Part shown: positions 2,699 to 51,014 of the stretch, piece by piece
How the letters are laid out: the number at the start of each line of letters is the position of its first letter
Numbering within the stretch: position 1 is the first letter of the stretch
Virus record (IMG/VR): IMGVR_UViG_3300034198_012226
Coordinates: 1-64,000 of that record
Source: a virus
Reading direction: 5' to 3' (one strand)
DNA: 64,000 nucleotides
Program-made: the position numbers and the translations under genes
The notes under the pieces: model-generated
Database searches by the model: none
Seen by the model: only the letters and a program-made list of their open reading frames with translations
Told to the model about the DNA's origin: nothing

Positions 2699-3562
2699 AT
2701 GGACAAGAACGCAATGCTGGCAATGGCACTTCCGGACGGCCTGTGGGCTGGTACGGAATCGACCCTACACTCACTGGTGGCCCGCCTGATGGCGATCCAC
2801 GAGCGCCCGATTCCTGAAGCGGCCATGGGCTACAGCTCGGTCACCGCGCAGAAGGAGGAGCCGCCCCCGTACCTGCTCTCGATGCAGGGCAGCATCGCCG
2901 TCATCGACATCAAGGGCGCGATGACCAACGCCACGAGCTGGTGGGACCGCTACGACAAGGTCTCGACCTACCCGGCGATCCGCGAGGCCCTGGTGTACGC
3001 CGCCCAGTCGCCGAGCGTGAAAGGCATCCTGCTTGACATCGAGTCGGGCGGCGGCGCTGTGGCAGGTATGTTCGATACCGCCAACATGATCCGTCACATC
3101 AACGACAACGTGAAGCCTGTCGTGGCCTTCGGCGAGACCATGTTCTCGGCGGCGTACTGCCTGGGCTGCGCGGCTGGCCAGGTGTTCTCCTCGAAGTCGT
3201 CGGGCGTCGGCTCCATCGGCATCATCGCCACCCACATGGACTACTCGAAGATGTATGCCGACATGGGCATCAACGTCACGGTCATGCGCTCGGGCAAATA
3301 CAAGGCCCTGGTCAACCGCTTCGAGCCGCTGACCGACGCTTCCCGCGAGCAGTTCCAGGACGGCATGGACGCGAACTACGACGTGTTCATCGAGCACGTC
3401 GCGTCGATGCGCGACACGACCAAGCAGACCGCCGACAACAAGATGGCCCAGGGCCGTGAGTTCTACGGCCAGGCAGCTCAGGAAGCAGGACTTGTCGATG
3501 CGATCACCTCGTTCGATCAAGTGCTTGCCGCTCTGCAAGAAAGTGTTGACAAGCAACACTAA
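2699..3562 (+). CDS. S49-family prohead protease (SppA/lambda gpC type)
   Basis: This 287-residue protein matches the signal-peptide-peptidase-like serine protease fold that processes phage proheads. The GILLDIESGGGAVAGM block (around residue 105) is the S49 oxyanion region. The nucleophile is the serine in MFSAAY, and the general-base lysine is in MRSGKYKA about 50 residues later. AAGGAG lies 8 bases before the ATG, which follows the portal stop by two bases. In lambda the scaffold is nested in this gene's 3' end, whereas here a separate Ala-rich gene follows and probably plays that part. Confidence 0.88.
   Translation: MDKNAMLAMALPDGLWAGTESTLHSLVARLMAIHERPIPEAAMGYSSVTAQKEEPPPYLLSMQGSIAVIDIKGAMTNATSWWDRYDKVSTYPAIREALVYAAQSPSVKGILLDIESGGGAVAGMFDTANMIRHINDNVKPVVAFGETMFSAAYCLGCAAGQVFSSKSSGVGSIGIIATHMDYSKMYADMGINVTVMRSGKYKALVNRFEPLTDASREQFQDGMDANYDVFIEHVASMRDTTKQTADNKMAQGREFYGQAAQEAGLVDAITSFDQVLAALQESVDKQH
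2765..2779 (-). repeat. dispersed 15-bp motif, site 1
   Basis: CTACACTCACTGGTG inside the protease gene. It differs at one base from the sites before thyA and groES. Only one half matches the consensus well, so this is a weaker copy. Confidence 0.4.
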
Positions 3563-3604: not shown

Positions 3605-4273
3605 ATGGTACGCAAAGTCTTGAATGTGGCGGCTCTCGCAGCTCTCGCATCCGGCGCTTCCCTCCAAGCGAGCGCCAATTCGGCTCCGGCAGCAACCGCA
3701 CCAGTCGCTGCGTCGGGTGCTTCCCCTGAAGCTGCGGCTGCTGCCGCTGCTGCACAGGCCGCTGCTCCGGCAGCGACCACCGAAGGTACGGGCGGCGCTG
3801 CGCCTGCCGCTGAAGCTGCTGCCGCCCCGGCTGCTGCTCCAGCCGCTGCGGCTGCACCCAGTGTAGCCGCTGCTCCAGCAGCCGCCCCTACCGACGTTAC
3901 GGCCTATCTGCAAGGCCAGATCGCCACCAAGGACGCCGCCCTGCTCGCCGCAGGCGTCGAGACCGCTGCCCTCAAGGCTCGCGTGACCGAGTTCGAGGCG
4001 TCGATGAACGGCCTGATGGAAATCGCCCGTGCTTCCCTGACCAACATGCGCGTCGCCCTCGGCGGTCACAAGACCGACCTGTCGGCGCTGTCCGCAACCG
4101 AACTCCTGGCACAGCACGAAGCTGCGTCCAAGGACTTCGGCAACCAATTCGTTGCTGGTGGTGTTGCTGCTGTTGACGCCGCACAAGAAACGAATGCCAG
4201 CCGTGCGCAGGCTCCGGACTCCCTGGAGATTGCCCGTCTGAACGCTGTCGCTGGCACCCGCAAGCGCAGCTAA
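3605..4273 (+). CDS. Ala-rich capsid scaffold-like protein
   Basis: This 222-residue protein has a basic-hydrophobic N-terminus, then about 75 residues made almost wholly of Ala, Pro and Thr. A helical half beginning near YLQGQIATKDAAL has coiled-coil character. Such C-terminal halves occur as the scaffold part of S49 protease-scaffold fusions, and this gene sits between protease and decoration protein. The N-terminus mimics a signal peptide (KVLNVAALAALASGAS), but head genes of this position are cytoplasmic. GAGGAAATATCCC precedes the ATG. Function is inferred from position and composition. Confidence 0.6.
   Translation: MVRKVLNVAALAALASGASLQASANSAPAATAPVAASGASPEAAAAAAAAQAAAPAATTEGTGGAAPAAEAAAAPAAAPAAAAAPSVAAAPAAAPTDVTAYLQGQIATKDAALLAAGVETAALKARVTEFEASMNGLMEIARASLTNMRVALGGHKTDLSALSATELLAQHEAASKDFGNQFVAGGVAAVDAAQETNASRAQAPDSLEIARLNAVAGTRKRS
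3852..3866 (-). repeat. dispersed 15-bp motif, site 2
   Basis: CTGCACCCAGTGTAG in the Ala-rich part of the scaffold gene. With flanking bases it forms a 19-bp near-perfect inverted repeat, GGCTGCACCCAGTGTAGCC. Confidence 0.75.
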
Positions 4274-6532: not shown

Positions 6533-7024
6533 ATGTACCTGCTCGGATTCACCACCCCTGACGACATCCGAGCAGTCCTCGGCGTCAACGACGTGGAGCT
6601 GAAGGACGACACCTTGCTCCTGTCGTTGTACGCCGATCACCTGGCTACGGAGCTGGACGACATCAGCTTGACCCTGGCCTCCAGGTACAAGCAGATCGCC
6701 GAGAAGGCCGAGGAGACGCGCACCGAGGACGAGAAGCGCCTCCTGCGCAGCACCGGCCTGTTCGCCACCTACACCGTCGCCAAGCAGCTCGCGGGCAGCT
6801 TGTCGATGTTCGCTCCGAAGTCGGTCTCGGACAGCAAGGCTGAAGTCTCCCGATTCGCCGATCCCTACAAGGACACGAAGAAGGACATCAAGACCCAGTG
6901 GGAGCTGTACAAGGGCCGCGTCACCGCCGCCCTGAGCGCCCTGGAGACCCTCAACACCCGGTCGGCCCCGCGCACCATCATGCTCGTCTCCACGCCGTCC
7001 GTTGACGCCACGGTGGCCTCATGA
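6533..7024 (+). CDS. head-tail connector (adaptor-like)
   Basis: A 163-residue, mostly helical protein beginning with TTPDDIRAVLGVND, a pattern common in phage adaptor proteins (HK97 gp6-like). It follows the capsid genes, and its stop overlaps the next gene's ATG. It likely forms the ring under the portal. Assignment is by position, size and predicted helicity. Confidence 0.55.
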   Translation: MYLLGFTTPDDIRAVLGVNDVELKDDTLLLSLYADHLATELDDISLTLASRYKQIAEKAEETRTEDEKRLLRSTGLFATYTVAKQLAGSLSMFAPKSVSDSKAEVSRFADPYKDTKKDIKTQWELYKGRVTAALSALETLNTRSAPRTIMLVSTPSVDATVAS

Positions 7025-7899
7025 TGAAGCTCTCGGACGTGGGCCGCGTCTTCGACACCATGACCATCCTGGACGCCTCCGGCAAGACCAGGCCGGTCAA
7101 GGGTCGCATCCTGCCCTACGACGACAACTCGCGGGACAGCCTGTCTGCCGACCGGCGCATCCTCTCGATGGTGCCTGGCACCGCGATTCCGGCCCGCCGC
7201 GTGATCCACGCTGCCGGGGAATACTGGATCGTGGGTCAGGTCACCGCCGACTTCCATGGCGACGAGCCGCTCCGGCAGAAGTACGTGCTGCACCGTGTCG
7301 ATGGTGTGGCGCGGGTGGCCACGTTCGAGCAGGCGATCTCCGGCGTCGGCGGCGTGACAGCGCACGTCGGCCGTCTCTGGATGAAGGACATGAAGGAGCC
7401 GGAGGAGTCCTCCTCGCTCTACGAGTCGTTGCACTTCTACCTCTCGACCACCGAGGACATCCGTGACCAGTCGAAACTGACCGGCCCGTTCCTGGACGGC
7501 GAGGAGACCCACGTACTCATCCACTTCAAATCGAAGTGGCACCTGGTGCGCAACACGTTCGAGTCCGCTGGTGGCTTCCAGGTTGCTGTGGTGGACGAGC
7601 TGCCTGATCCGGTGGCCATCGCCGCCACGATCAATTCGACCGTCTACGACAAGCTGGCCGACAAGAAGGTCGCCACCGGCAAGACCGTACAGGCCCTGAG
7701 CCTGCGCTGGCAGTCCCAGTACACCTACCTGTCGTCCTACTCCACGAAATACGAGGAGGGCGACCGCGTGCTGATGGTGCTGAAATCGGACACTACACCG
7801 ACTGTAGCCGACACCGTCACGCTGCGGGGCCGCACGTTCAAGGTCGTCACGGTACTTGACCAGGCCAACGTCTGGGCCTTGCACCTCCGGCATGTTTAA
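7021..7899 (+). CDS. head-tail joining or neck protein, unknown family
   Basis: This 292-residue protein starts at an ATGATG overlapping the previous stop. It is rich in beta-strand-like segments and has no motif I can name. Two similar-looking halves are possible: each carries a hydrophobic segment followed by a Tyr-rich stretch. Its place between adaptor and gp10-like genes suggests a stopper or neck component. Motif site 3 lies near its 3' end. Confidence 0.5.
   Translation: MMKLSDVGRVFDTMTILDASGKTRPVKGRILPYDDNSRDSLSADRRILSMVPGTAIPARRVIHAAGEYWIVGQVTADFHGDEPLRQKYVLHRVDGVARVATFEQAISGVGGVTAHVGRLWMKDMKEPEESSSLYESLHFYLSTTEDIRDQSKLTGPFLDGEETHVLIHFKSKWHLVRNTFESAGGFQVAVVDELPDPVAIAATINSTVYDKLADKKVATGKTVQALSLRWQSQYTYLSSYSTKYEEGDRVLMVLKSDTTPTVADTVTLRGRTFKVVTVLDQANVWALHLRHV
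7793..7807 (+). repeat. dispersed 15-bp motif, site 3
   Basis: CTACACCGACTGTAG, a copy with both outer halves intact (CTACA and TGTAG). It is read as codons ACT ACA CCG ACT GTA, an unusual run for this genome. Confidence 0.8.
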
Positions 7900-11091: not shown

Positions 11092-14000
11092 ATGAACGAC
11101 GCCATCTCAACTATCGGACTAGGTGTAGACACCAAGCCGGGTCTCGAACACCTCAAGGAGTTGCGTGCCGCTTTCGCCGGTTTGAAGGCCGACGTGAACG
11201 ACCTCAACAACCTGCGGGCGAGCGCAGATGGCCTCGTCGGCGGGGCCGGAAACGCCTCGGCGAAGCTGACTACACTGAGTGCAGAGTTGAAGGCTGCGAA
11301 GGCGCAACTCGCTGAAATGCAGGCCCTGGCGCAGAACGCCTCCCGCACGGAAGTGTCCACTGCCCAGAGCACGGCCCAGGCCGTCATTACCGCCTCGGGC
11401 GGTAAGCTGCGTGCTGTGGTCGAGGACGAGAAGAAGGCGGCTGAGGCCGTCCAGCGGTACGAGAAAGAGAAGACCGCCACGGTCGTGGAGGAGTCGAAGA
11501 AACGCGAGAACCTGGCCAAACTGAACTACTCGGCCAAGTTCGGTAGCGCCTCGTACAGCATGGGGTCGGTCATCCCCGTCGATCAAGCCCAGGGCAAGAT
11601 CATCCAGAAAATGCTGGAGGATCAAGCGCGCATCATGGAGACCAACGCGGCCCGCCGCACGGCCATGGACAAGGCTGTCGAAGCCGAGCACCGCGCCGGG
11701 ATGCTGGCGTCGGCTGCACTGGACGAAGCGACCCGCGAGAAGATGCTCGCGGATCACGCGGCATACCAGGCAAAGAAGATCGCCCTTGACCGTGAGGCCG
11801 AGCTGCGCCACCAGCAGATGATCCTGGAAAGCTCCGTCAAGGACGCCGCCGCCTTGCAGGCCCGCCTGGAGGAGACCCGCCGCTTCATGCAGGCCGAGGC
11901 CAACCTCCAGAACAAGGAAGCCTACGCTCGCAAGCTGGCCGAGCAGGATCAGGAATACAAGCTCCATCTGCTGCGCCAGGAGGAGTACGCCGCACGTCAC
12001 CGTGAGCTGGAAGCGACCTTCCGCGCCGCCGAGGTGGAAGCGAACCGCCTGAAGCTGCTTGCCCAGAACCAGCAGTACCAGCTCCACCTGATGTCCCAAG
12101 CCGAGCACCTGAAGGAGTGGAAGCAGATCCAGGCCCTGATCGCCAATGACGAGCGGGAAGCCAAGCGACTGAAGCTCCTGGAGCAAGATCAGGATTACAA
12201 GCTGCACCTGGCTCGCCAGGCCGAGTATCAGGCGCGTCACCGCGAGCTGGAGGCTACGTTCCGTCAGGCCGACCTGGACGCACAGAAGGCGAACCTGCTG
12301 GCCCAGAATCAGCAGTACCAGCTCCATCTGCTGGCCCAGAGCGAGGCCCTGGCCAAGCACAAAGCTGCACAGCGTGCCATGGTGCAGGACGCCAACTTCA
12401 CGACTGCCCCGTTGTCGAGCCAGGTTCGCACCGTTGGCCGCGCCAAGGCGCTGGTGGACAACGGCCAGGCTGACCTCGCCCGTGACGTGTACGGGCCAGC
12501 AGCAGTTGGTGCTGTAGGCAAGCTGGACGCCATGATCGCCCAGTTGAATGCAACCCAAACGCAGGGCCATGGCATCAAGTCCGAAGCCGCCAAGCGCCAG
12601 CAGCACCTGACCCAGTCGATGAACGACGCCCACTCGGCTGCTCGCGGCCTTGCAGGGGGCCTCGGCCAGCTCTGGGTGACCTGGGGTAGCACCGTGCCGC
12701 TGATCGCTGGCGCGGCCATCTCTGGCTCGATGGCGAAGGTCTTCACGGCGGGTAAGGATGTCGAATTCCAGCTCCAGTTCCTGAAGGCGCTGTCGGACGA
12801 TGTCAAGGCCCCGGACATCAACATGGATGGTTTCATGACCATCACCCAGGGTTCGATGTCCAGCGTCAAGGAGGCCGCGCAGGGTATGCGTGCGCTGGCC
12901 CAGGCTGGCCTCGACCAGAAGTCGGCCCTGGCTGCGCTGCCGGACGTACTTGACCTTGCGGCTATTGGCGAGATGAAGGTCGGCCAGGCCGCGATCACCG
13001 CGACCGGCGTCGTCAACGCATTCGGTCTTTCCATGACCGACATCGGTCGTGTGGGCGACGTGTTTGCCCGCGTCGCTGCGGCGTCGAACACCTCGGTTGC
13101 CGCCATGACCGAGTCGATGAAGCAAGCCTCGACGGTCGGCGACATGTTCGGCCTGACCCTGGAGCAGGCGTCCGCGTCTATCGGCGTGCTGGCACAGCGA
13201 AACATCCTGGGCACCTCGGCCGGTACCGCGCTGACCACCGCGCTGAAGAACATCTACGAGCCGACCGCCAAGGCGAAGGCCGCGCTCGACGCGCTCAACA
13301 TCACGACCGACGATGGTAAGGGTGGTCTGAAGGACTACACCCAGATGATGGACGAGCTGCGCCTGAAGCTCTCCCAGTTGAACGATTCCGACAAGGCTGT
13401 CTTCCTGGGCACCATCTCCGACCAGCGCGGCGCAAAGGCCCTGTCGGCGATCACCAAGAACTACGACGAGTATCTGGATTTCCTGGGCAAGACCACGGAA
13501 GCACAGGACTTTATGAGCAAGGGCACGCTGAAGCTCGAAGACACCGTCCAGGGCGCATTGCAGCGCATGGCTAACACGATGGATCACACCTTCGTGCGCG
13601 GCTTCGAGAAGGCACAGCCTGCGATCCGTGGCGTACTGCGTGAGATGACCGCCATCGCTGGTGACCACTCCCTTGAGGAGTGGATTGCCCGTGGTGCTGT
13701 GGGATTCACCCGCCTGACCGCGACCATTGTTGAACACTCAGGTAAGATTCTGTCCCTGGTCGGCGTGTACATGGGCCTGAAGATCGTCAGCTCGCTGACG
13801 AACGCCTTCGTCGCCTACCGCACCCAAGTTGCGATGGCTACACTGGCTACAGCCGCCAATACCGCAGGCACCCAAGCCAATACTGTCGCCCTCACCATGC
13901 AGGAGCGCGCAGCGGCCATGGTCGGCGCTACGGCCATTCGTTCGGCGGGATTCCTGCGCCTGATGACCGCAGCAGCCGGCCCGCTGTCACTGGTCGTGAT

Positions 14001-17000
14001 GGGCCTGGTGACGGCCTACCAACTCTACAACAGCGAGACCGACGAGGCGGCGAACAATCACAACCGTATCATGAATACGGGCGAGACCATCCTCGACTTC
14101 TACAAGCGCCAGACCTCGAAGCTGCAAGACCTGAACCGCGAGCTGGAGCGTAAGAACGAGCTGGAACGCAACCCGAAGGGCAAGGGCAACGACAAGACCG
14201 AGAACCAGGTCGCCGTCGAGAACGCCCAGGCTACCCTTGCCGAGAAGCGTGCTGCGCTGGCCAAGCTGCCGGAGAAAAGCTACTTCGGCGAGAACGGCAC
14301 CTGGAAGATGAATTCGGGCGCTGCGAAGCAGTACGAGTGGGATCGCTACGCCGCTCTGAAGGAAGTCGAGGCGGCTGAGAAGCGCGTCAACGAGCTGCTG
14401 GAGCAGGGCAAGAAGATCGAGATCGAGCGCGGGCAGTACGTCAAGGACAAGGCTCGCGCCAAAGTCCTGACCGACCGCGACCGTACTGCCGAACAGCTCG
14501 AAGACCTGATCGACGCCGCTGGCGGCGTGAAGGGTGACGGCGGTACCGAAGAAACCCGGAAGATGATCCCGGCCCTCCAGGTGATGCTGGAGCAGACCCG
14601 TGCGAACGACAAAAACTACACTCAGTTTATGCCGTTCATCGAAGGTCTCCGGAGCCAGATCAATCAGCTCAAGCCGAAGATGGGTGACCTGAAGGGCGAC
14701 GGCGATAAGGGTAAGAACGACATCTACCGTGCTGCCCAGGCCAAGCTGGATGGCGAGCTGCAACTTGCCAAGGACACCGAAGCAGGCAAGCTGGCCGATA
14801 CCAAGTCGCGTCTGGCTCGCAACGAAATCGGCGACCTTACCGCCATCGCCCAGAACCTGGAGACCGTGAAGGCTGCGCGCAAGGAAGAACTGCGCATCTT
14901 CAAGGAGAAGGAGGAGCTGGCCGCTCGCCAGGAGAATCGTCGCGCCGATCAGCAGCAGATCAGCAACAAGGGCGATCAGACGAAGCGTGCAGACGAACGC
15001 TCCGACAAGGACGCGAACAACCAGCGCCTGGAGTTGCTGGCCAAGTGGTCTGACGACAGCCTGAAGGTCGAGGCTGACCGTCTGCGCAAGCGTGGCGAGC
15101 TGGTCTCGGCATTCCAGAAGGAGTGGGACGCCAAGAACGGCGGCGAGCTGGCGCGCATCACGGGCGACCTGGACTCGGACAAGGTCAAGCCGGAGGACAA
15201 GGAAGCCCTCCGTAGTCGCAAGTCGTACCTGGAGAACCAGCGCGAGACCGGCACCGACACCGCCAAGTTCGAGGAACTGAGCGACGCCTACGACAAGCTG
15301 ATGTCCGACATGGACGAGAAGCTGGCCAATGTGGCGCAGAAGGCATCGGAGTCGAACGGCTTCCTGTCGGATGTGGGCGCTGTGCAGATGGCCGACGCGA
15401 TCCGGGATAAGACCCTCCCGGCAGCGCAGCAGCTTCAGGCCGAGATGGCGGCTGTCGCCGAGCGCCTGGGCGACAACAAGCTCAAGGCCAACGTCAGCAA
15501 GATGGGCGTCGAACTTGCCAAGGAGGCGAACCGCACCAAGAAGGAGTGGATCGACGCTGGCAAGTCCATCGAGAAGTCCCTGTCCGATGCGTTCGGCAAG
15601 GGTGGCAAGGCCGTTGGTGGCCTGGTCTCGGCCCTCATGAAGCAGAAGGCCGAGCAGAAGGATATTGACGACCAGCTCAAGCGTGCGGTCAAGCAAGACC
15701 CGAAGAAGGAGGCTGAACTCCAGGCCGAAGCTGCCCAGAAGACTGCCCAGGTGCAGCTCTCGTCCTATGGCGAGATGGCCAGCGCCGCCAAGTCGTTCTT
15801 CGATGAGAACTCGAAGGGCTACGAGGCCATGCAAGCCGCCGAGCGTGTGTTCCGTGGCTTCGAGATGGCCATGGCGCTGGAATCGTTCCTGGTGAAGCAG
15901 GGATTCATGTCGGCATGGCTGACCGCGTTCACCACGACCAAGACGGCCGAGGTGGCGGCTGAGACGGCCACCCTGGCACCGACCGTGGCAGTCGAAACGG
16001 CGAAGCAGGGCGTCTTCAGCATCACGGCGCTGGCTGGCGCACTTGCTCTGCCTTTCCCGGCCAACCTGCCAGCGTTCGCTGTCGTCGCGGCTATGCTTGC
16101 GGCCATCGGTATCGCCGTCAGCGGCGGCGGTGGTGGCGGCTCGGCACCGAGCGTGTCGGAGCAGCGCCAGAAGTACCAGGGCACCGGCTACAACTACGAC
16201 CCATCGACCGATCCGAAAGACCTCCCTTACGACTGGGAGCTGAAGAAGTCGGAATCGCTGACCAAGGCCCTGGACGCCCTGAAGGACAACTCGGCCATCG
16301 AGCTGCGCTACTCGTCCAGCCAGCTCATGGCACTGGAGAGCATCAAAGCCGGTATCAGCGGCATGGCCGCGTCGATCACCCAGGCCGCTGGCCTGCGCGG
16401 CACCCGCGCTGACGAGCGTGCCCTGGGCGTCTACGACACCCACAGTAAGCTCGGCTTCAGCAGCTCGTCCACGTCGCTCCAGGACAGCGGTATCGTCTTC
16501 TACAAGACGAACCTGGGCTACGTCATGAACGGTGGTGGTCTGGGTGAGTCGTATGCCCAGATGCAGCACAAGAGCAAGTCGTTCTGGGGCCTGTCGAGCG
16601 ACACCGACAACTACACCGTCAAGGACACCCTTGACCCTACCCTGTCCCGTCAGATGGGCCTGGTGGTCAAGGACATGTACAGCTCGATCTCGAACGCGGC
16701 TGTCGAGTTCGGCCAGGACAAGGCTACGGTTGATCGCCGCCTGGGCAACATGAGCCTGCAACAGGCTGGCCTGAGCTACATCAGTCTGAAGGGCCTGTCG
16801 CAGGAGGACGCACAGAAGGAGCTGGAGGCGATCTTCAGCAACATGGGCGACCAGATGGCACGCGCCATCATGCCTGGTCTGGATGCCTTCGAGCAGGCCG
16901 GTGAGGGCTACTACGGCACCGTGATGCGCGTGTCGTCGTCCATCGAGTCGGCCAACTATACGATGCAGAAGCTCGGCATCGCTGCTGCCGACTTCAACAG

Positions 17001-18822
17001 CGTGGGTAACAAGTCGGGCGACCTCGCCGCCGAGATCGTCCGTACCAGCCTGCTGAACAAGGAACTCCAGACCGGCTACACCACGGGCATCGCCAAGATG
17101 ATGTCCACCATGTCCGGCAGCGCCAGCGAGATGGCCGAGGCGTACACCAAGCTGAACGACGTGCGTCGCACCATGAAGGCCACGGGTGCCCGCAACGTGG
17201 ACGTGACCGATTCTATGGTCAAAGGCGCTGGTGGCCTGGACAACCTGTCCTCGGGCATGGAGACGTACCTGGAGAACTTCTTCGAGGACAGCGAGCGTAA
17301 TGCAGTCAAGGCGTCCCTGCTGAACGACGAGTTCGCCAAGATGGGCCTGACCCTGCCGAATTCGGTCAAGCAGTTCCGTGCCCTGGTGGAAGGTATCGAC
17401 CGCTCGACGGCGGCTGGCCAGACCATGTACGGCACCCTGATCGGCCTGGCCGAGGAGTTCGCCGATCTGGCTGACGACCTGGGTGCAGTCAACCCGGCGA
17501 TCACCAAGCAGCGCACCGAGACCGACAAGCTGATCACGAAGACCGAGGAGTGGCTCGACACCCTGACGAACGCACGCGGCCTGCTGAACGACATCAACTC
17601 GGCACTGAACGACGGCAACCCAGTCGATCAGACGAAGCGGATCGCCGAGCTGCGCAGCCTGCTGTCGTCGGACACCCTGAACTTCGACCAGCAACTGGAG
17701 ATCGCTGGCGAGCTGAAAGACCTGGTGCTGGAGAAGTACCAGGTCGAGAAGGAAAACGCTGAGACCCTGATCGACTTCGGTCGTGAGATGCAGGGCTACG
17801 TCCTGAGCCTGAAGGTGGGCGAGAAGTCGCCGCTGACGAACAAGCAGAAGCTGGAGGAGGCGAACCGCCAATACCAGAGCACGCTGGCTGACACCAAGTC
17901 GGAAGACAAGGACACCCGCGAACAGGCCCAGAGCGAGCTGCAAGGTAAGGCTGACGCCCTGCTCGAACTTGCCCGCACCTACTACGCCAGCTCGCAGAGC
18001 TACACCGAGATTTTCAACAAAATCTCCGGCGAGCTGGACTCGGCAGGCGCTGGCTCGATCAAGAAGGGTTCGGTGCTGGAGGAGCTGGCTAAGGGACAGA
18101 CTGAGGCCCTGATCGACCTGCGCACCCTGGTGTCGCAGATTTACGACAAGGCCGACGACGGCTACAACAAGTCGGCCCAGGCGCTGAATGAGCATCTGGT
18201 TGTCCTCCAGGGCATGTACAACGGCATCAACCTGCTGACCGAGATGCCAGCCCTGCTGCGCTCCCTCCCGGCAGAGCTGGCAGCGAAGATGGCCCTGGGT
18301 GCGAACGTGGACACCAGCGGCCCTTACAACGGCGGCACCGTGACCATGCCTCCTCCGGTCGTCGGCTACTACCCAGGCACCACCGACGGCTACTACGAGC
18401 GCGAGAACGCCTACTCGAAGCCTTCGGACTTGTACTCGGGCATCCCGATGAACCTGGAGAACGAGCTGCGGTGGCAGAACTACAGGATCAACGGCTCCCA
18501 TGCCAACGGACTTGACTATGTGCCGTTTGACGGGTATGTTGCCGAACTGCATCGTGGAGAACGTGTCCTGACGGCAAGTGAAGTTTCCCGGATGGACAAG
18601 GCAAACATGTCCAGCACCCAGAGCTTCAGCCCTGCCGAACGTGATGAGATGGCTAAGGAAATCCGGGAGCTGAAGGAAGTCGTCAGCACCCTGGTCACCG
18701 CCCAGGACGTGAACACGGTGCGAATGATCCAGGCCATGTTCGCCTCCTCGAAGAAGAACGCCGAGGAGGTCGTGGAGGGAACCAAGACCACGGCACCAAC
18801 CCAAAAAGCTAAGGCAGTATGA
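11092..18822 (+). CDS. tail tape measure protein
   Basis: At 2576 residues this is by far the largest gene. I start it at the ATG at 11092 with TAGGAAAC upstream. The N-terminal 400 residues are charged coiled coil with an 81-residue tandem repeat (about residues 280 to 420). Residues 540 to 750 match the conserved tape-measure core (GQAAITATGVVNAFGLS, then LGTSAGTALTTALKN). Hydrophobic stretches near residues 965 and 1640 to 1680 are typical of the segment that enters the host membrane. The C-terminus has the conserved HANGLDYVPFDGYVAELHRG motif. At about 0.15 nm per residue the tail would be near 390 nm, an estimate that assumes a fully helical ruler. Confidence 0.95.
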   Translation: MNDAISTIGLGVDTKPGLEHLKELRAAFAGLKADVNDLNNLRASADGLVGGAGNASAKLTTLSAELKAAKAQLAEMQALAQNASRTEVSTAQSTAQAVITASGGKLRAVVEDEKKAAEAVQRYEKEKTATVVEESKKRENLAKLNYSAKFGSASYSMGSVIPVDQAQGKIIQKMLEDQARIMETNAARRTAMDKAVEAEHRAGMLASAALDEATREKMLADHAAYQAKKIALDREAELRHQQMILESSVKDAAALQARLEETRRFMQAEANLQNKEAYARKLAEQDQEYKLHLLRQEEYAARHRELEATFRAAEVEANRLKLLAQNQQYQLHLMSQAEHLKEWKQIQALIANDEREAKRLKLLEQDQDYKLHLARQAEYQARHRELEATFRQADLDAQKANLLAQNQQYQLHLLAQSEALAKHKAAQRAMVQDANFTTAPLSSQVRTVGRAKALVDNGQADLARDVYGPAAVGAVGKLDAMIAQLNATQTQGHGIKSEAAKRQQHLTQSMNDAHSAARGLAGGLGQLWVTWGSTVPLIAGAAISGSMAKVFTAGKDVEFQLQFLKALSDDVKAPDINMDGFMTITQGSMSSVKEAAQGMRALAQAGLDQKSALAALPDVLDLAAIGEMKVGQAAITATGVVNAFGLSMTDIGRVGDVFARVAAASNTSVAAMTESMKQASTVGDMFGLTLEQASASIGVLAQRNILGTSAGTALTTALKNIYEPTAKAKAALDALNITTDDGKGGLKDYTQMMDELRLKLSQLNDSDKAVFLGTISDQRGAKALSAITKNYDEYLDFLGKTTEAQDFMSKGTLKLEDTVQGALQRMANTMDHTFVRGFEKAQPAIRGVLREMTAIAGDHSLEEWIARGAVGFTRLTATIVEHSGKILSLVGVYMGLKIVSSLTNAFVAYRTQVAMATLATAANTAGTQANTVALTMQERAAAMVGATAIRSAGFLRLMTAAAGPLSLVVMGLVTAYQLYNSETDEAANNHNRIMNTGETILDFYKRQTSKLQDLNRELERKNELERNPKGKGNDKTENQVAVENAQATLAEKRAALAKLPEKSYFGENGTWKMNSGAAKQYEWDRYAALKEVEAAEKRVNELLEQGKKIEIERGQYVKDKARAKVLTDRDRTAEQLEDLIDAAGGVKGDGGTEETRKMIPALQVMLEQTRANDKNYTQFMPFIEGLRSQINQLKPKMGDLKGDGDKGKNDIYRAAQAKLDGELQLAKDTEAGKLADTKSRLARNEIGDLTAIAQNLETVKAARKEELRIFKEKEELAARQENRRADQQQISNKGDQTKRADERSDKDANNQRLELLAKWSDDSLKVEADRLRKRGELVSAFQKEWDAKNGGELARITGDLDSDKVKPEDKEALRSRKSYLENQRETGTDTAKFEELSDAYDKLMSDMDEKLANVAQKASESNGFLSDVGAVQMADAIRDKTLPAAQQLQAEMAAVAERLGDNKLKANVSKMGVELAKEANRTKKEWIDAGKSIEKSLSDAFGKGGKAVGGLVSALMKQKAEQKDIDDQLKRAVKQDPKKEAELQAEAAQKTAQVQLSSYGEMASAAKSFFDENSKGYEAMQAAERVFRGFEMAMALESFLVKQGFMSAWLTAFTTTKTAEVAAETATLAPTVAVETAKQGVFSITALAGALALPFPANLPAFAVVAAMLAAIGIAVSGGGGGGSAPSVSEQRQKYQGTGYNYDPSTDPKDLPYDWELKKSESLTKALDALKDNSAIELRYSSSQLMALESIKAGISGMAASITQAAGLRGTRADERALGVYDTHSKLGFSSSSTSLQDSGIVFYKTNLGYVMNGGGLGESYAQMQHKSKSFWGLSSDTDNYTVKDTLDPTLSRQMGLVVKDMYSSISNAAVEFGQDKATVDRRLGNMSLQQAGLSYISLKGLSQEDAQKELEAIFSNMGDQMARAIMPGLDAFEQAGEGYYGTVMRVSSSIESANYTMQKLGIAAADFNSVGNKSGDLAAEIVRTSLLNKELQTGYTTGIAKMMSTMSGSASEMAEAYTKLNDVRRTMKATGARNVDVTDSMVKGAGGLDNLSSGMETYLENFFEDSERNAVKASLLNDEFAKMGLTLPNSVKQFRALVEGIDRSTAAGQTMYGTLIGLAEEFADLADDLGAVNPAITKQRTETDKLITKTEEWLDTLTNARGLLNDINSALNDGNPVDQTKRIAELRSLLSSDTLNFDQQLEIAGELKDLVLEKYQVEKENAETLIDFGREMQGYVLSLKVGEKSPLTNKQKLEEANRQYQSTLADTKSEDKDTREQAQSELQGKADALLELARTYYASSQSYTEIFNKISGELDSAGAGSIKKGSVLEELAKGQTEALIDLRTLVSQIYDKADDGYNKSAQALNEHLVVLQGMYNGINLLTEMPALLRSLPAELAAKMALGANVDTSGPYNGGTVTMPPPVVGYYPGTTDGYYERENAYSKPSDLYSGIPMNLENELRWQNYRINGSHANGLDYVPFDGYVAELHRGERVLTASEVSRMDKANMSSTQSFSPAERDEMAKEIRELKEVVSTLVTAQDVNTVRMIQAMFASSKKNAEEVVEGTKTTAPTQKAKAV
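11270..11284 (+). repeat. dispersed 15-bp motif, site 4
   Basis: CTACACTGAGTGCAG near the start of the tape measure, one base from the consensus. It encodes ACT ACA CTG AGT GCA. A weaker half copy (GGTGTAG, codons CTA GGT GTA) lies 150 bases before it at 11121. Confidence 0.8.
11929..12357 (+). repeat. in-gene tandem duplication in tape measure
   Basis: Two units offset by 243 bases (81 codons) share EQDQ-YKLHL-RQ-EY-ARHRELEATFR and then LLAQNQQYQLHL. The second unit is slightly shorter at its end. Conservation at the protein level with many synonymous changes suggests an old duplication of a coiled-coil ruler segment. Confidence 0.85.
13838..13852 (+). repeat. dispersed 15-bp motif, site 5
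   Basis: CTACACTGGCTACAG in the tape measure. The left half is perfect, the right half degenerate. It is flanked by GG and CC, giving a longer imperfect inverted repeat. Confidence 0.6.
14616..14630 (+). repeat. dispersed 15-bp motif, site 6
   Basis: CTACACTCAGTTTAT in the tape measure. The left ten bases match site 21 exactly. Confidence 0.6.
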
Positions 18823-20306
18823 TCTCCGATGCGCAATACAGAGAATGGCTGAAGGATGATGAGGGCACCGCCATCCGGTGTGTCCTCATCAAGACGACGG
18901 CCAAGTTCGGCGGGACTGACCAGACCCTCTACCTGTCCAATCTGGGCTACCGAACCGGAGCCGGAGACACCCCGGCCAACACCCAGTACCTGGACGTGGT
19001 ATCGGGCGGCGTCAAGACCAGCGAGAAGGTCAGCATCGAAGGCAAGGTCACGATGTCCTGGGGCACCATCGAGTTCGACAACTCCGATGGTGCGCTGGAC
19101 GACTGGCTCGACGCCGTCTGGAAGAACAACGACATCCAGGTGCTCTACGGCGATTACACCTGGCCGGTGGCCGACTTCAGGCTTGCCTTCACCGGCATCA
19201 ATGGTGAGATCGACGCCAAGGATCGGGACAGGCTGCAACTGCCGGTGGAAGACAAGCTCCGCAAACTGACAACGGCCCTGACCGAGGCGAAGCTCGGGGG
19301 CACCAGCGCCAACAAGGATCGCCTGCGGCCGGTTCTGGTGGGCGAGGCCCACAACTTCGAGCCGCTGCTGATCAACGAGGCCGACCACGAGTACCAGTGG
19401 CATATCGGCCTGGGTGAGCGCGTGATCGAGGTTCGTGACGACGGCGTGCCGATCACGGTGACGACTACACTGGGTACAGGCACCCTCATGCTGGACGGTA
19501 GTCCCGAGGGCCAGATCACGATGAGCGCCCAGGGCGACGCCACGGGCGGCTACTCGAACACCCTGGTTGGTGTCGTCAAGAAGTTGGTCAAGAACTACGG
19601 CAAGGCCGACCGTCGCTTCACGGACGCCGACCTCGACCTGGTGCAACTTGCCAACTTCGACGCTTCGCACCAACAGGCCGTGGGTGAGTATTTCCCCGAT
19701 GGCCCGAAGGTGATCGACGCCTGCCAGAAGATCGCATCGAGCATCGGCGCACAGGTGACCATGTCCCGCGCCGGTCTGTTGCAACTGCTCCAGATCACGT
19801 ACCCGCTCGGCACCCCGACCGTGAACATCACCGTTGACGACATGGTCGAGGGCAGCTTCCGTCCAGTCGGAAAATCGGAGGTGAAGGCTGCGGTCACCCT
19901 GAAGTTCTGCCGCAACTACACGCCCCAGGATCAGCTCGACTCTGGCGTGGTCGAGGCGCACCGCGACATGTTCAAGAAGGAGTGGCTCACCGTCACCCGC
20001 ACGAACGGCACCGTGGCCACCGACCACAAGCTGGACACTGTCCTGGATGAAAGCGACCACGAGGAGTCGTCGCTCCTGGTCGAGAACGATGCGAACAACG
20101 AGGCCGACCGCAGGCTGCTGAACCGCAGCACTGCGCACATGACCTACCAATTCGAGGGCCATGCCCAGTGCCTGACGCTCGAACGCGGCACCATCGTGAA
20201 CCTGACGCACCCCCGCTTCAATCTCTCCGCAGGCAAGACCGCCGTCGTCGTCGGCCTTGACCCTGACTGGCTCAACTCCCGCTGCATCGTACAGGTGATG
20301 GTATAA
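18819..20306 (+). CDS. tail protein following tape measure (distal tail/hub type)
   Basis: A 495-residue protein starting in an ATGA overlap with the tape measure. It is rich in predicted beta strands, with no enzyme motif. Genes in this place build the distal tail ring or baseplate hub that links tube and tip. The segment near residue 60 (VSGGVKTSEKVSIEGKVTMSW) looks like a tube-type beta sandwich. Exact equivalence to a known tail gene is not established. Confidence 0.6.
   Translation: MISDAQYREWLKDDEGTAIRCVLIKTTAKFGGTDQTLYLSNLGYRTGAGDTPANTQYLDVVSGGVKTSEKVSIEGKVTMSWGTIEFDNSDGALDDWLDAVWKNNDIQVLYGDYTWPVADFRLAFTGINGEIDAKDRDRLQLPVEDKLRKLTTALTEAKLGGTSANKDRLRPVLVGEAHNFEPLLINEADHEYQWHIGLGERVIEVRDDGVPITVTTTLGTGTLMLDGSPEGQITMSAQGDATGGYSNTLVGVVKKLVKNYGKADRRFTDADLDLVQLANFDASHQQAVGEYFPDGPKVIDACQKIASSIGAQVTMSRAGLLQLLQITYPLGTPTVNITVDDMVEGSFRPVGKSEVKAAVTLKFCRNYTPQDQLDSGVVEAHRDMFKKEWLTVTRTNGTVATDHKLDTVLDESDHEESSLLVENDANNEADRRLLNRSTAHMTYQFEGHAQCLTLERGTIVNLTHPRFNLSAGKTAVVVGLDPDWLNSRCIVQVMV
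19465..19479 (+). repeat. dispersed 15-bp motif, site 7
   Basis: CTACACTGGGTACAG in the distal tail gene, encoded as ACT ACA CTG GGT ACA. Preceding GA and following GC bases add little symmetry. Confidence 0.65.
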
Positions 20307-23300
20307 ATGGCTGCAATCGTTAATGCGCGTGACGCGCTCCTTCAGGCCCCCGGCACCGTCCGGCTGATCGCCACAGACCTTGAAGACCCGTTGAGCATGT
20401 TCTCGGCGGTCAAGTCGTGGGACTTCCGCAACAGCCTGGAAGGGTGGACTATCGGCGGCGCTGGCAACGTCCTGCGTGCCGACTCGTTCGACCTGTCTTC
20501 TTCCGGCTCCGATCCACAGATCAACAGCCCTGCCCTCACCATCAACGGCGGCTTCTACGACAAGGTGCGCGCTCGCGTGCGCCGCAAAGGCGGCACCGGC
20601 TGGCAGGGTTCGCTCTACTACAAGACGCCTGACCGCCAGACCTTTGAAGAACTGTTCACGAAGCAAGTCACCGACGCTACCGTGAACGGCAACTGGGTCG
20701 TGCTGGAGTGGGACATGGGCGACACCGTCAACTGGACGACCAAGACCATCACACAGATCAGGCTCGACCTGGGCGCGAGCGTCAGCGACGTGTTCGAGAT
20801 CGACTGGATTTCGGTTGGTCGCTATGGCCCGGTCTCCCTGAGCGACCTGGGCTACACGGGTGCGCTAAACGCAACCTATGGTGCTGACTGGGCGACGAAC
20901 GTGAACGGCGCTGGCACTGTGAACCAGGCCATCGCTGACGCCGCTGCTGACGCTTCCGCTGCGGCCACCGACGCTGACGCCGCCTTGACCCGCCTCGGCT
21001 CCATGAGCAACGACGCGGTCATCGACCGCACCGAGAAGCTGGAGATCGTCAAGGAGTGGAAAGTCGTCACCGACGAGCGAGCTGGCATCCAGGCTCGGGC
21101 CGACGAGATGGGCGTCTCCAGGGTCGCCTACGACAATGCCTACTCGGCGCTGTCCACCTACCTGGGCACCCTTGCCTACACCGACTACACGAAGGACAAC
21201 GCGGTCGTGCGCTCGACCTTCAACACGAACTGGGCCACGCTCTACACGCAGCGCCAGCTCCTGTTGAACGCCATCGTCGGAGCCTCAGCCAAGAACGTGT
21301 TCGCGCCGACGCGCACCTGGGACTTTGCTGCCGACGCCGAAGGTTGGGTTGGCGAGTCGGCTACGGCTACCATCACCCAGGGCACCAACTCGATCATCGT
21401 AACGTCCGCTGGAGCCGACCCACGTCTGGGATCGGCTTCAGGACTTGCCCTGGTCGGTTCCCAGAATGACAAATGGCGTATGCGTCTGCGCCGTACCGCT
21501 GGTACGGGCTGGCAGGGTTGCCTCTACTACACCACCACGGCTGGCCCGAACGCCCTGCACGGCTCCTCCTCGTCTTACCAGAAGACCATCGCCACCGACC
21601 CGACCATCGGTGGGGCCTGGACGATCATGGAGTGGGACATGGCGGCATTGACCGCTGGCGGCACCGACTATGTCCTGAGCACCATCGGCCAGGTCAGGTT
21701 CGACCTCGGCGCTTCGGCTTCGGACGTGTTCGAGATCGACTGGATCACGGTCGGCAAACACGGCCCTGCCATCTCGGCTATCGACCTGGCAGCAGCCGCC
21801 AACACCGCGTCCTGGGGTTCCGTCAATGGTAAGCCGCTGGACAGCGAGATCATGAATAGCGAACTCGATCCGAAGTTCGCGGGCCTGGACACGCCGTATC
21901 TGCGGTGGGATTTCGCCAGCAGCGTCGAGGGCTTCAGCTTCTCGACCGCCACCTTGACCCACGACGCCACGGACGGCACCATCGTGTGGACGCCGACCGG
22001 CTCCAACCCCGTGCTGTCGAAAGGCATCCCTGCGGCCAGCAAGTTCAACGGTAAGGACTACACCAGGGTGCGCGCTCGCGTGAAGCGTGTGTCTGGCACC
22101 GGCCCATGGGAAGGCAACCTCTATTACGGCACAGCAGGCCCTGTGGCCACCCACGGTGCTGTCACGTCGGCCTATGCCAGAGTCACGCAACCGGCCAACC
22201 CTGACGACTGGAACATCCTCGAATGGGACATGACCAAGCTGGAAGCCGGGGGCACCGACTGGCTTGATAACATCATCGACATGATCAGGATCGACCTGGT
22301 CAGCAGCAACTCCCCGGCGTCGTCGTGGAAAATCGACTGGGTTGCCATTGGCAAGTTCAACACTGGAGTGTCGCCGACCGAGGTGAAGGGCATCCAGGCT
22401 GACCTGGCCACCTTGACCACCAACTTCAACAGCACGAACGACCGCAATAGCGCCGCCGTCGCGGCTCCGACCATCGCCACCGATGGCACTGCCGTCGATC
22501 ACACGATCCGCACCGATGGTAGCGCCGACATCTCGTTCGAGTGGGCCTGGGCGGGTAACGAAGGCGACATCGACGGCTTCCTGGTGTACGTGTTCCAGCG
22601 GTCGGCAACGGGGGCATACACCTTCGGCACGACCCCGGCTGAAGAAACCGTCTTCACCGTCCCGGCCAACAAGCGTGCGTTCATCCTGACTGGCGCAGCG
22701 GCCAACCTGTACACCACCTTCGGCGTGCAGGCGTATCGCTCGGTGGACAAGGACGTGAATGCTGCGGGCGTTATCAAGTCCACCCTGGTGAAGCCCTCGC
22801 TGGTGGCTGAAAACCCGTACCAGCCCTCATCCAGTGTAGCTTTCGCTGGCAACGTCACCGGCACCATCAACGGCACCGCCGTCGCCACCGTGGTGTCCAA
22901 CGCCTCTGCCGGTAAGACGGCCAACGACGCCCTGCCTGCCATGAACACGGCGATCACCGGCAAGCTGGCCAAGAACGCCAACGACACCATCACCGGCCAG
23001 ATCGCCTTGCAGTCCCAGTACGCCCTCCTGGTCGGCACGGCCAACGACGGCATCTTTTATGGCTCCACCGGCATGTACGGCCGCAAGGGTGGCGTCACCC
23101 AGTTAAGCATTGGAGCGGACGGCACGGCCTACTTCGGCGGCACGCTCGGTGCGAACATTGTTGATGCAGGCAACATCAAGGCCGGAGCTGTCCGTGCGTC
23201 GCACTTGATCATCCAGGGTGACGTGACGAACCTTATCCGCGATCCGCGTTTTGAAGACCCGAACTGGTGGAGTCTGCCAGGCCACAACTACGGTCGTGGC

Positions 23301-24908
23301 GACTGGAGTACCACGCAGACAACCGCCTGGAAGGACAACTGCTCGCTGTATCTGTACAGCACCGGCAACCAGGTCAGGGAGTTCTGGACGAAAGAGATGA
23401 TGATCGAGCCAGGCGCTGAGTATTATTTCGAGTATCAGATCAGTTTTTCCGGCGACTTCGATGGTGATGTGGCGATTCACTGGTACATGCCGATGGTGTC
23501 CTGGTACAACTTCGGCGTGCCGAGTTCGGGCTATGTCTTCTCGGACAATTCTTCGGAGATTCACTACCCGAGCAACAGCCGTGGCTTCAAGCAAGTCACT
23601 GGCAGCGTGTATATTCCAGCCGACCCACGCCTGGTCAAGAGCGCCATCCGTGTGCGCTTCCGCGTCAACACCGGCTCCTTTGAACTCGGCGGCTTCCGCA
23701 TCATTCGCAAGCAGGAAACCGTTACGATCCGCGACGGCGTCATCACGGCTTCCAAGATGAACCTGCCATGGGGCGGCTACATCAACTCGGGCCAGTGGGG
23801 CTTCGACGCGGGTGACGGCTTCTGGCTGCAAGGTGGTGACGACCCTCGCTTCAGTATCGGCGCAGGCAACGCTCGCCTGACGTTCCAGAAATCGACCGGC
23901 GTGCTCAAGATGCGGGGCGCGATTGAAGGTTCGTCTATCCGCACTTCGGCCTTGGGCATCGAATCGGCGCGCATGATCACCGACTGGAACATGACAGCTC
24001 CGTTCGTTATCTTCGACACCGCAGGCAGCTACAACGCCAACGCGACCAGCAAGACGGTCACGCTGACGGACATCTGCGGCCCTGCCTACACCGGGGTCGG
24101 CTATCACTCCAAGCGCCTTGCCAGCTTCCGTAAGGACATCTTCATCAAGGTTACGGTCAACGGCGACTTCGGGTGGGAGAACGTGTACATCGACGTTGAG
24201 TACCACAAAAACGGTGGGTGGAATAACATCGCCAGCACCAGTGCAGACTTCAACTACCGAGCAGGAGTCACCATCGTCGTGCGTTACACCCCATGGTTCG
24301 CCGGTTGGGACTGGATTGCATTCCGAGCACGCACCAGCCAGGGACGCACCTACTCGATCACCATGGAAATCCAGGTATTCAACTTCAACGAAACGACGTT
24401 CAGCGAAAACACCTGCTCCGGCATCAATGGTAGCGACGCAACCTACACGCCACCGCCGCCGACTGAGCGTGAGCCATACTGCGTGGACTTTGAGACCGCA
24501 CGCTTCCCGGATGGCACTTATGTTCGTGATGTCCTGGTGGACGACATGGTCGAATGCTGGAACGAAGACCCGATCAATCCAGCCACCGAATACGCAGCAG
24601 CACTGCGGGTTCGCTTCGGTCATGAGGAGAGTTACCGTATCCGCAGCGAGAGCGGAGCCGAGCTGCTGCAATCGAAGTCCACCCCGATGACCCTGCGCGA
24701 CGGCAGGATGATCTACACCCCGGCGCTCCTGGGTGAGGAAATCCTTGTCAAGCGTGGCAATGACTTCGCATGGGAGCGCGTCGTTACCCTTGAAAACATC
24801 GGCGTCCGCAAGGTCGTCAAGCTGTCTCTCGGCGACCGCACGTTCTTCGCAGGTACCGATCCGGAAGCAACCATTGCAACGCACAACATCCAGCAGATGA
24901 AGCCATGA
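20307..24908 (+). CDS. large tail tip/fibre protein with three repeated beta modules
   Basis: A 1533-residue probable host-recognition protein at the tail tip. It contains three related modules of about 140 to 150 residues (near residues 38-175, 337-489 and 532-688). Each runs WDF---EGW, a long beta region, GTGWQG-LYY or an equivalent, then LEWDM or MEWDM, and ends IDW--VG-(Y/H)GP or a close variant. Between modules 1 and 2 is an Ala-rich helical linker (DAAADASAAATDADAALTRL). The C-terminal third resembles central tail-fibre proteins, with a GNARLTFQKSTGVLKMRG stretch. The modules look like carbohydrate-binding jelly rolls, which is an inference from pattern. Confidence 0.75.
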   Translation: MAAIVNARDALLQAPGTVRLIATDLEDPLSMFSAVKSWDFRNSLEGWTIGGAGNVLRADSFDLSSSGSDPQINSPALTINGGFYDKVRARVRRKGGTGWQGSLYYKTPDRQTFEELFTKQVTDATVNGNWVVLEWDMGDTVNWTTKTITQIRLDLGASVSDVFEIDWISVGRYGPVSLSDLGYTGALNATYGADWATNVNGAGTVNQAIADAAADASAAATDADAALTRLGSMSNDAVIDRTEKLEIVKEWKVVTDERAGIQARADEMGVSRVAYDNAYSALSTYLGTLAYTDYTKDNAVVRSTFNTNWATLYTQRQLLLNAIVGASAKNVFAPTRTWDFAADAEGWVGESATATITQGTNSIIVTSAGADPRLGSASGLALVGSQNDKWRMRLRRTAGTGWQGCLYYTTTAGPNALHGSSSSYQKTIATDPTIGGAWTIMEWDMAALTAGGTDYVLSTIGQVRFDLGASASDVFEIDWITVGKHGPAISAIDLAAAANTASWGSVNGKPLDSEIMNSELDPKFAGLDTPYLRWDFASSVEGFSFSTATLTHDATDGTIVWTPTGSNPVLSKGIPAASKFNGKDYTRVRARVKRVSGTGPWEGNLYYGTAGPVATHGAVTSAYARVTQPANPDDWNILEWDMTKLEAGGTDWLDNIIDMIRIDLVSSNSPASSWKIDWVAIGKFNTGVSPTEVKGIQADLATLTTNFNSTNDRNSAAVAAPTIATDGTAVDHTIRTDGSADISFEWAWAGNEGDIDGFLVYVFQRSATGAYTFGTTPAEETVFTVPANKRAFILTGAAANLYTTFGVQAYRSVDKDVNAAGVIKSTLVKPSLVAENPYQPSSSVAFAGNVTGTINGTAVATVVSNASAGKTANDALPAMNTAITGKLAKNANDTITGQIALQSQYALLVGTANDGIFYGSTGMYGRKGGVTQLSIGADGTAYFGGTLGANIVDAGNIKAGAVRASHLIIQGDVTNLIRDPRFEDPNWWSLPGHNYGRGDWSTTQTTAWKDNCSLYLYSTGNQVREFWTKEMMIEPGAEYYFEYQISFSGDFDGDVAIHWYMPMVSWYNFGVPSSGYVFSDNSSEIHYPSNSRGFKQVTGSVYIPADPRLVKSAIRVRFRVNTGSFELGGFRIIRKQETVTIRDGVITASKMNLPWGGYINSGQWGFDAGDGFWLQGGDDPRFSIGAGNARLTFQKSTGVLKMRGAIEGSSIRTSALGIESARMITDWNMTAPFVIFDTAGSYNANATSKTVTLTDICGPAYTGVGYHSKRLASFRKDIFIKVTVNGDFGWENVYIDVEYHKNGGWNNIASTSADFNYRAGVTIVVRYTPWFAGWDWIAFRARTSQGRTYSITMEIQVFNFNETTFSENTCSGINGSDATYTPPPPTEREPYCVDFETARFPDGTYVRDVLVDDMVECWNEDPINPATEYAAALRVRFGHEESYRIRSESGAELLQSKSTPMTLRDGRMIYTPALLGEEILVKRGNDFAWERVVTLENIGVRKVVKLSLGDRTFFAGTDPEATIATHNIQQMKP
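22825..22839 (-). repeat. dispersed 15-bp motif, site 8
   Basis: CTACACTGGATGAGG on the minus strand within the tail tip gene. Only the CTACACT half is intact. Confidence 0.5.
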
Positions 24909-25620: not shown

Positions 25621-25635
25621 CTGCACTCAGTGTAG
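25621..25635 (-). repeat. dispersed 15-bp motif, site 9 (intergenic)
   Basis: CTGCACTCAGTGTAG starts two bases after a stop codon. Both halves are intact apart from one transition, and GACTGCACT also resembles the left flank of other copies. Confidence 0.85.
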
Positions 25636-28630: not shown

Positions 28631-28645
28631 CTAAAGTCAGTGTAG
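28631..28645 (-). repeat. dispersed 15-bp motif, site 10 (intergenic)
   Basis: CTAAAGTCAGTGTAG begins two bases after the stop of the minor tail gene and abuts a terminator. The placement is the same as at site 9, immediately after a stop codon. Confidence 0.75.
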
Positions 28646-43381: not shown

Positions 43382-43755
43382 GGTGGCCCCTCTTTCTTCG
43401 CGGGGTGACCTTCAGGCAGCATGGCCTGGGCCACCTTCTGCGCCGCCTTCTTTCGCCCGCCACCCTTCTGTGCCGGTGGCGTCCAGGTCGGCCCCATGAT
43501 GCGAACCAGGGACTCGGTGTTGAGGGTGTCTTTCCAGGCCGGAGGTGGCAGGCCATTGGCCATGGCCACCACGTCCTCCAGGTGGCAGGCGATGATGCCT
43601 TCCTTCGCACCTTTCACATGCGCCGAACGGTTCTTCGAGAAAGGCCACCAGTTGACCATGGTGGCGCTGCCGGTGACCTGGAAATGGCCGGGACTCGGCT
43701 CTTTCAGCTCGACTCCGAGCTGCTTCAGTGCCGAGCGAATCTGCTCGTCGTTCAT
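43369..43755 (-). CDS. small protein, unknown, coupled to DNA polymerase
   Basis: A 128-residue protein starting in an ATGA overlap with the polymerase stop and with GGAGG upstream. The segment MVNWWPFSKNRSAHVKGAKEG resembles small phage proteins that start with a short basic-aromatic patch. The C-terminus is Lys/Gly/Ala-rich. Function unknown. Confidence 0.6.
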   Translation of the reverse strand: MNDEQIRSALKQLGVELKEPSPGHFQVTGSATMVNWWPFSKNRSAHVKGAKEGIIACHLEDVVAMANGLPPPAWKDTLNTESLVRIMGPTWTPPAQKGGGRKKAAQKVAQAMLPEGHPAKKEGPPWSE

Positions 43756-50999: not shown

Positions 51000-51014
51000 C
51001 TCCAGTGAGTGTAG
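51000..51014 (-). repeat. dispersed 15-bp motif, site 18, over groES ribosome binding site
   Basis: CTACACTCACTGGAG on the minus strand, with GGAG as the Shine-Dalgarno of the groES-like gene. Confidence 0.8.

Follow-up and report, generated by a model that had tools for sequence, protein, structure and literature searches.

Noc, the nucleoid occlusion protein of Bacillus, is a member of the ParB family and spreads from 16-bp sites (NBS) that are scattered around the chromosome (PMC8429893). It is a bacterial protein, bound to the membrane via an N-terminal amphipathic helix. KorB of the IncP plasmid RK2, a DNA-binding clamp of the same family, acts on several dispersed operators of one mobile genome; the operator OB is described as a 16-bp sequence, and KorB is a sliding clamp that can silence from operators located at a distance (PMC11790492). 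Operators of KorB are tied to promoters and to KorA. The ParB-parS systems of chromosomes and plasmids likewise combine a protein of this family with palindromic sites. Among phages, the stoperators of cluster A are many protein-binding sites dispersed in the genome, the motif of which varies with the cognate protein; they are asymmetric and directional, and are bound by an unrelated monomeric repressor of temperate phages (PMC9283540, PMC6550527). Several hundred known phages encode ParB-type proteins, mostly with unclear use.

The phage genome described here shares with Noc/NBS a ParB-family protein and sites scattered over the whole genome. A Noc structure (7ol9) is the best Foldseek match of this protein, which also displays a sub-cut-off match to the Noc model TIGR04285. 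Differences are that the genome is viral, that the sites lie about 2.8 kb apart, and that the sequence word is another one. The first helix of the phage protein, NFREFERENEDV, appears charged, a judgement made by eye only and without a dedicated predictor. With KorB it shares the protein family and the dispersed sites on one mobile genome, but the phage sites are mostly located inside genes and evenly spaced. The protein family (TIGR00180, phrog_1033) and the palindromic sites connect it to ParB-parS, whereas no ParA has been detected in the phage and its sites are unclustered. The motif copies do not show the stoperator pattern of an asymmetric site in one main orientation to transcription.

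A further palindrome, TTTGGTCTSAGACCAAA, is present in the Vibrio phages PS14A.1, 264E42.1 and SHOU24 (records MW824431, positions 1-26000, MW824417 and KF623293), which are distant relatives by capsid and portal. This palindrome of 13-17 bp has the same CTSAG centre, and occurs within 2 mismatches of the core in 39, 39 and 15 copies, respectively, versus 1-2 expected. In PS14A.1, in contrast to the array described here, the copies are intergenic and mostly precede a start codon by about 25-55 bp; the palindrome may possibly represent an operator or leader element. No phrog_1033 gene was found in these Vibrio phages, except that in two of them a DGQHR/DndB-looking protein matches weakly. Based on their intergenic position, the PS14A.1 palindromes were set apart and not regarded as the same type of array.

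The phage and its relatives

The window, i.e. the whole stretch of DNA that was analysed, comprises the first 64,000 bases of a virus record of 86,481 bases (the phage G000). The phage is tailed; its left part encodes capsid, portal and tail proteins on the plus strand, and the minus strand carries the replication genes (DNA polymerase, primase, helicase, ribonucleotide reductase, thymidylate synthase). A search of this genome for a tyrosine integrase gave no match. Distant cultured relatives, with about 30% identity in portal and capsid protein, are the Pseudomonas phages PMBT3, Lana and UAntarctica, and Vibrio phages such as SHOU24 and PS14A.1. Two further relatives were used for comparison: G001 (86,761 b), with DNA about 75% identical (mostly 65-84% in aligned blocks), and the more distant G009 (84,785 b), a capsid-matched genome from IMG/VR. 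The contig G002 is the same virus as G000 (99.997% identical) and was excluded from the evidence. Three fragments (G010-G012; capsid 53-56% identical) of only a few kb each contain neither CACTNAGTG nor ParB, and are uninformative for a link between motif and ParB. Positions 81650-81950 of the phage display multiple alignments to the G001 contig near 16.4-16.7 kb, which suggests a short internally repetitive element.

The motif and its sites

A first-pass annotation of the window had pointed to copies of a motif inside genes that are written in off-preference codons, and had taken this as direct evidence for selection on the DNA sequence. The consensus derived from a position matrix is CTACACT-S-AGTGTAG (written as a duplex in the form CTACACTGAGTGTAG), a palindrome of 13-15 bp with one central base. 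In the whole phage, 33 sites score above 9 and 31 above 13, with thresholds of our own choice. A blind scan of all palindromes of the form 6+gap+6 ranks TACACT-N-AGTGTA at the top in this genome (15 copies vs. 0.8 expected), and the motif has 23 matches, compared to a mean of 1.9 (max 15) for scrambled palindromes of equal composition. In a simple scan for the 13-mer that allows 3 mismatches, the motif hardly stands out (50 vs. 31 expected). The commonest form of a site has one perfect half and one weaker half. Both strands are represented among the 23 of 31 copies that lie fully within genes, and 16 of these 23 use the reading phase NCT ACA CYG RGT GYA G, which avoids stop codons at the price of strongly disfavoured codons. 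The eight intergenic copies amount to a mild enrichment outside genes (P=0.008). The copies in the window are as follows (no strand is assigned to a copy; the sign gives the strand of the gene).

2765-2779: motif copy in gene 2699-3562(+); kept at the orthologous position in G001
3852-3866: motif copy in gene 3605-4273(+); kept in G001
7793-7807: motif copy in gene 7021-7899(+), codons ACT ACA CCG ACT GTA; named in the first-pass annotation; kept in G001
11270-11284: motif copy in the tape-measure-sized gene 11092-18822(+); G001 has a site at the corresponding place, where the alignment is broken
13838-13852: weaker motif copy in gene 11092-18822(+)
14616-14630: motif copy in gene 11092-18822(+)
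19465-19479: motif copy in gene 18819-20306(+); kept in G001
21176-21190: weak motif copy in gene 20307-24908(+); codons ordinary, may be chance
25621-25635: motif copy, intergenic
28631-28645: motif copy, intergenic; kept in G001
31013-31027: motif copy in gene 30577-31140(+)
33469-33483: motif copy in gene 33333-33875(+)
35655-35669: motif copy in gene 35641-36195(-)
38574-38588: motif copy in gene 38297-39430(-); kept in G001, where it is stronger
40960-40974: motif copy in the ribonucleotide reductase gene 40824-42764(-); kept in G001
45434-45448: motif copy in the DNA polymerase gene 43752-46034(-); kept in G001
48082-48096: weak motif copy in gene 47240-48601(-); missing at the orthologous place in G001
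51000-51014: motif copy, intergenic; G001 site 114 bp away
53598-53612: motif copy in the primase-type gene 52108-54954(-); kept in G001
56920-56934: motif copy in the helicase gene 55625-57046(-); identical in G001
58318-58332: motif copy at the 5' end of gene 57527-58342(-); kept in G001
60466-60480: motif copy, intergenic, upstream of both the small gene 60164-60385(-) and the adjoining ParB-like gene
61240-61254: motif copy in gene 61013-61708(-)
63222-63236: motif copy in the J-domain-like gene 62575-63255(-); missing at the aligned place in G001

Codon usage and selection on the DNA word

The first-pass annotation had cited six in-gene copies, all of which are located at the coordinates and in the reading frames that it gave, and had named codon usage equal to the gene average as the outcome that would refute its claim. 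The codon preferences are as it described: relative adaptiveness is 1.0 for ACC, GTC, GCC and GGC, compared to.09 for ACT,.05 for ACA,.07 for GTA,.10 for AGT,.22 for GCA and.28 for GGT. The mean ln(w) is -1.26 at the 23 in-gene copies, whereas the gene mean is -0.39; the median percentile of the copies is 1%, and 21 of them fall within the lowest 10% of the windows of their own gene; the refuting outcome did not occur. The remaining two (centres 21183 and 67650) contain no rare codons. At chance matches to scrambled palindromes, codon adaptation is merely mildly low (-0.46).

However, low codon quality alone is circular evidence, since in a GC-rich genome any match to a word of higher AT content brings rarer codons with it. 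Off-preference codons by themselves are thus insufficient as proof, and selection was therefore tested separately. Synonymous-codon shuffles (200) that preserved every protein and the overall codon usage yield 0.57 coding copies on average and 2 at most, versus 16 observed (up to 3 mismatches to the 15-mer). With a matrix learnt solely on G000, the relative G001 displays 15 coding sites compared to 0.88 in its own shuffles, and G009, analysed with its own matrix, has 20 compared to 1.33. The other check, on synonymous constraint in homologous genes, was run against G001 and limited to codons with an unchanged amino acid and the third base inside the motif: 33 of 42 such codons are identical, whereas the same codons outside the motif would give 17.8 (sd 2.9). 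The corresponding count for rare codons at the motif is 24 of 30, versus 9.2 expected. The claim of selection is hence supported by shuffles and conservation, although not by the codon argument alone. As far as sequence can establish it, selection maintains this DNA word within genes of either strand, and core phage genes pay a measurable codon cost for a function at the DNA level.

Spacing, orientation and turnover

The sites of the phage are separated by a mean gap of 2.8 kb with a CV of 0.50, versus about 0.95 for random placement, and none of 5000 simulations is as even. G001 has 28 sites above 13 (mean gap 3.1 kb, CV 0.41), again with 0 of 5000 random placements as even, and the sites of G009 (mean gap 2.83 kb, CV 0.57) are also spaced more evenly than random (P=0.0004). 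Evenness holds at three score thresholds; the weakest case is G001 at the strictest one (P=0.047).

Among 16 alignable sites, 13 are at the same position in G001, and substitutions often keep the palindrome. The remaining G001 sites are located elsewhere, e.g. 114 bp away. In minus-strand genes the stronger half of the site faces either way about equally often (5 vs. 4), while in plus-strand genes 9 of 11 share one direction. Taken together, the regular intervals, the absence of a consistent orientation and the turnover of site positions between relatives fit even coverage of the genome better than the switching of particular promoters. In the open-licence literature, we found no previous report of a phage with a ParB-type array at even spacing.

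A ParB-like gene as the proposed reader

The KorB operator has as its core a palindrome of 13 bp centred on S. The motif, likewise 13 bp with one base at its centre, resembles this operator, which prompted the search for a ParB-family gene. The phage encodes such a protein together with a small neighbour.

59070-60107, minus strand: ParB/Noc/KorB-like protein of 345 aa, proposed binder of the motif (phrog_1033, TIGR00180, TIGR04285, Foldseek)
60164-60385, minus strand: 73-aa protein adjoining the ParB-like gene; among the relatives, only in the three motif-bearing phages

The 345-aa protein matches phrog_1033 (ParB-like) with E=3.9e-39. Matches to TIGR00180 (4.6e-9, under the trusted cut-off) and to the Noc model (1.3e-6, under cut-off) are weaker, and those to HTH_ParB (PF17762, 2.8e-4) and KorB (PF08535, 4.1e-4) are both just under cut-off. 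Foldseek lists Noc (7ol9, E 1.9e-9) and KorB (8qa9, 1.2e-8) at the top, and ParB as well, starting from a low-confidence model: the AF2 prediction is poor (pLDDT 55), with block means of 69-88 in residues 31-110 and values mostly below 60 in the HTH. The assignment of the HTH consequently rests on the PF17762 and PF08535 matches and not on the model. With this qualification, an N-terminal ParB-CTPase fold and a central HTH are predicted to be present in the protein.

Residues R88 (the arginine of GxRR) and N130 (the asparagine of ENxxR) appear to be kept in G000, G001 and G009, and align with R89 and N121 of Noc, which are needed for CTP (PMC8429893). In the CTPase motif ENxxR of ParB, the glutamate is replaced by alanine and the last arginine is not kept either. 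Use of CTP by the ParB-like protein is uncertain because of the missing glutamate. The protein of G001 is 71% identical in alignment. Bacterial genomes with a close ParB yielded a single remote match.

Co-occurrence of the array and the ParB-like gene

As a predictive test, 25 capsid-matched relatives from IMG/VR were searched for phrog_1033. The sole carrier among them is G009, with a protein 35% identical to that of G000. A blind palindrome scan of this genome yields CACACT-N-AGTGTG, with 28 copies versus 1.0 expected (P about 1e-30), which was refined to TCMCACT-N-AGTGKGA with 30 sites. In duplex form this is TCCCACTCAGTGGGA. Both arrays have the same core, architecture, number and spacing, and differ in the outer palindrome bases. 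The region of the recognition helix is near identical between G000 and G001, which have the same motif, and changed in G009, where the motif is changed.

The core CACTNAGTG is present in 5, 7 and 23 copies in the three carriers, compared to 0-1 copies in the ParB-lacking PMBT3, Lana, UAntarctica, G016-G019, G030 and G031. A ParB-like gene was not detected in PMBT3, Lana, UAntarctica and SHOU24. Of those genes common to the three carriers and absent from ParB-lacking relatives, only the ParB-like gene has a recognisable DNA-binding domain, if a gene for an HNH/AP2-like protein (see below) is left aside. Only three phages support this association, and two of these are close relatives. The reverse does not hold: an array was sought in 12 phages with ParB homologs of greater distance, and none was found in FoX1, EhrS_59, KP591P1, PHB09, PCA1 and Sf11. 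Palindrome signals in Amjad_SA (a local repeat) and 9NA (which looks like one) were rejected as arrays. As many phages with a phrog_1033 homolog lack an array, the gene does not imply the array.

Proposed function and alternative explanations

Based on this dataset, we hypothesize that a phage-encoded ParB-family protein binds the motif copies, about 30 sites across the whole genome, from which clamps are loaded evenly along it. In the absence of binding data we consider this reading reasonably probable, no more. That the motif is recognized by the phage's own ParB-like protein is likely, again without binding data, and even clamp loading is the inferred and still untested function that fits best. 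Dimers of the protein would dock at the motif sites, would probably bind CTP and close into clamps, and may then slide into the 2.8 kb between sites, all inferred from analogy with ParB, Noc and KorB. The presumed outcome is a phage genome that is covered as a whole inside the cell. What such a coat is used for is a guess: it might keep the phage genome compact and separate, shield it, or silence genes over long range. The broader picture, of a virulent-type phage with a chromatin-like system in which a ParB-family clamp covers the genome from about 30 even sites, and in which these sites override codon preference in essential genes, is tentative and may well be wrong. An in-gene, evenly spaced array that accompanies a phage's ParB-like gene and changes with it suggests a concrete and testable role for such proteins, i.e. 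even loading over a viral genome.

The intergenic enrichment (8 of 31) speaks against this explanation, as it would equally be expected from gene regulation. The sites may alternatively be operators of a long-range silencer or repressor, with the ParB-like protein acting like KorB of RK2 or a stoperator repressor, and coverage not being the point. KorB is among the closest structural matches, one of the eight intergenic sites is located upstream of the ParB-like gene itself, and the stoperators of cluster A mycobacteriophages are likewise dispersed binding sites (PMC6550527, PMC9283540). However, most sites lie within genes and away from gene starts, their positions turn over between relatives while the spacing stays even, and stoperators are asymmetric and mostly in one orientation, whereas the motif copies are palindromic. 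A role as lysogenic repressor is without support because no tyrosine integrase was found. Silencing as the main purpose thus appears unlikely, albeit a possibility to be taken seriously.

The motif might also be read by another protein, either of the phage or of the host. The HNH/AP2-like gene 78805-79518(-), beyond the window and near the start of the minus-strand gene block, is a candidate: it is common to the three motif phages and partly present in two Vibrio phages with a different S-centred palindrome, and its PHROG matches are HNH endonucleases. Domains of the HNH/AP2 type usually read asymmetric sites, though, and the PS14A.1 palindromes, intergenic and just upstream of gene starts, form a different pattern. 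A host reader would not predict that the motif accompanies the phage's own ParB-like gene among relatives. We consider either reader improbable.

The ParB-family gene and the palindromic sites could also indicate plasmid-like parABS partition with many centromeres, in a phage living as a phage-plasmid. Very little credence can be given to this idea, as no ParA-type ATPase (AAA_31) was matched in G000, G001 and G009, and about 30 sites are spread genome-wide without a cluster; a convincing deviant Walker motif was not seen in the gene set either, while a partner other than ParA is not excluded. That the motif acts as an RNA hairpin in transcripts (a signal for processing, stability or termination) is hardly credible, although a stem of 6 bp closed by a loop of 3 bases is possible in some copies, since across 59 sites complementarity between the halves does not exceed that of independent half-sites (pair 3:13: 23, with 31 expected; pair 6:10: 32, with 38 expected), G-U pairs are not favoured, and halves that do not covary fit a protein dimer on DNA and not a hairpin.

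Palindromes in other phages

A blind palindrome scan combined with synonymous shuffles provides a simple route to such arrays elsewhere. In an exact-pattern scan of viral contigs, the matches that were followed were mostly single, and one other turned out to be a repetitive gene. Several long relatives without ParB are enriched in other palindromes. G030 is rich in TACGTA-NN-TACGTA (23 vs. 0.9 expected), which remains unexplained, and G016 and G017 display ATATGTACATAT (13 vs. 0.6) and CTGTAATTACAG (19 vs. 1.9). The Agrobacterium phages OLIVR4 (MT234341, 26394-40886) and 7-7-1 (JQ312117), both with a ParB-like gene, have 11 and 5 matches to TACAAATSATTTGTA, nearly all in one region; the copies in OLIVR4 are clustered and mostly intergenic. 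In Vibrio phage 1.055.O (MG592435), which also has a ParB-like gene, there are 27 matches to ACYGTTNNAACRGT, many of them clustered near one end.
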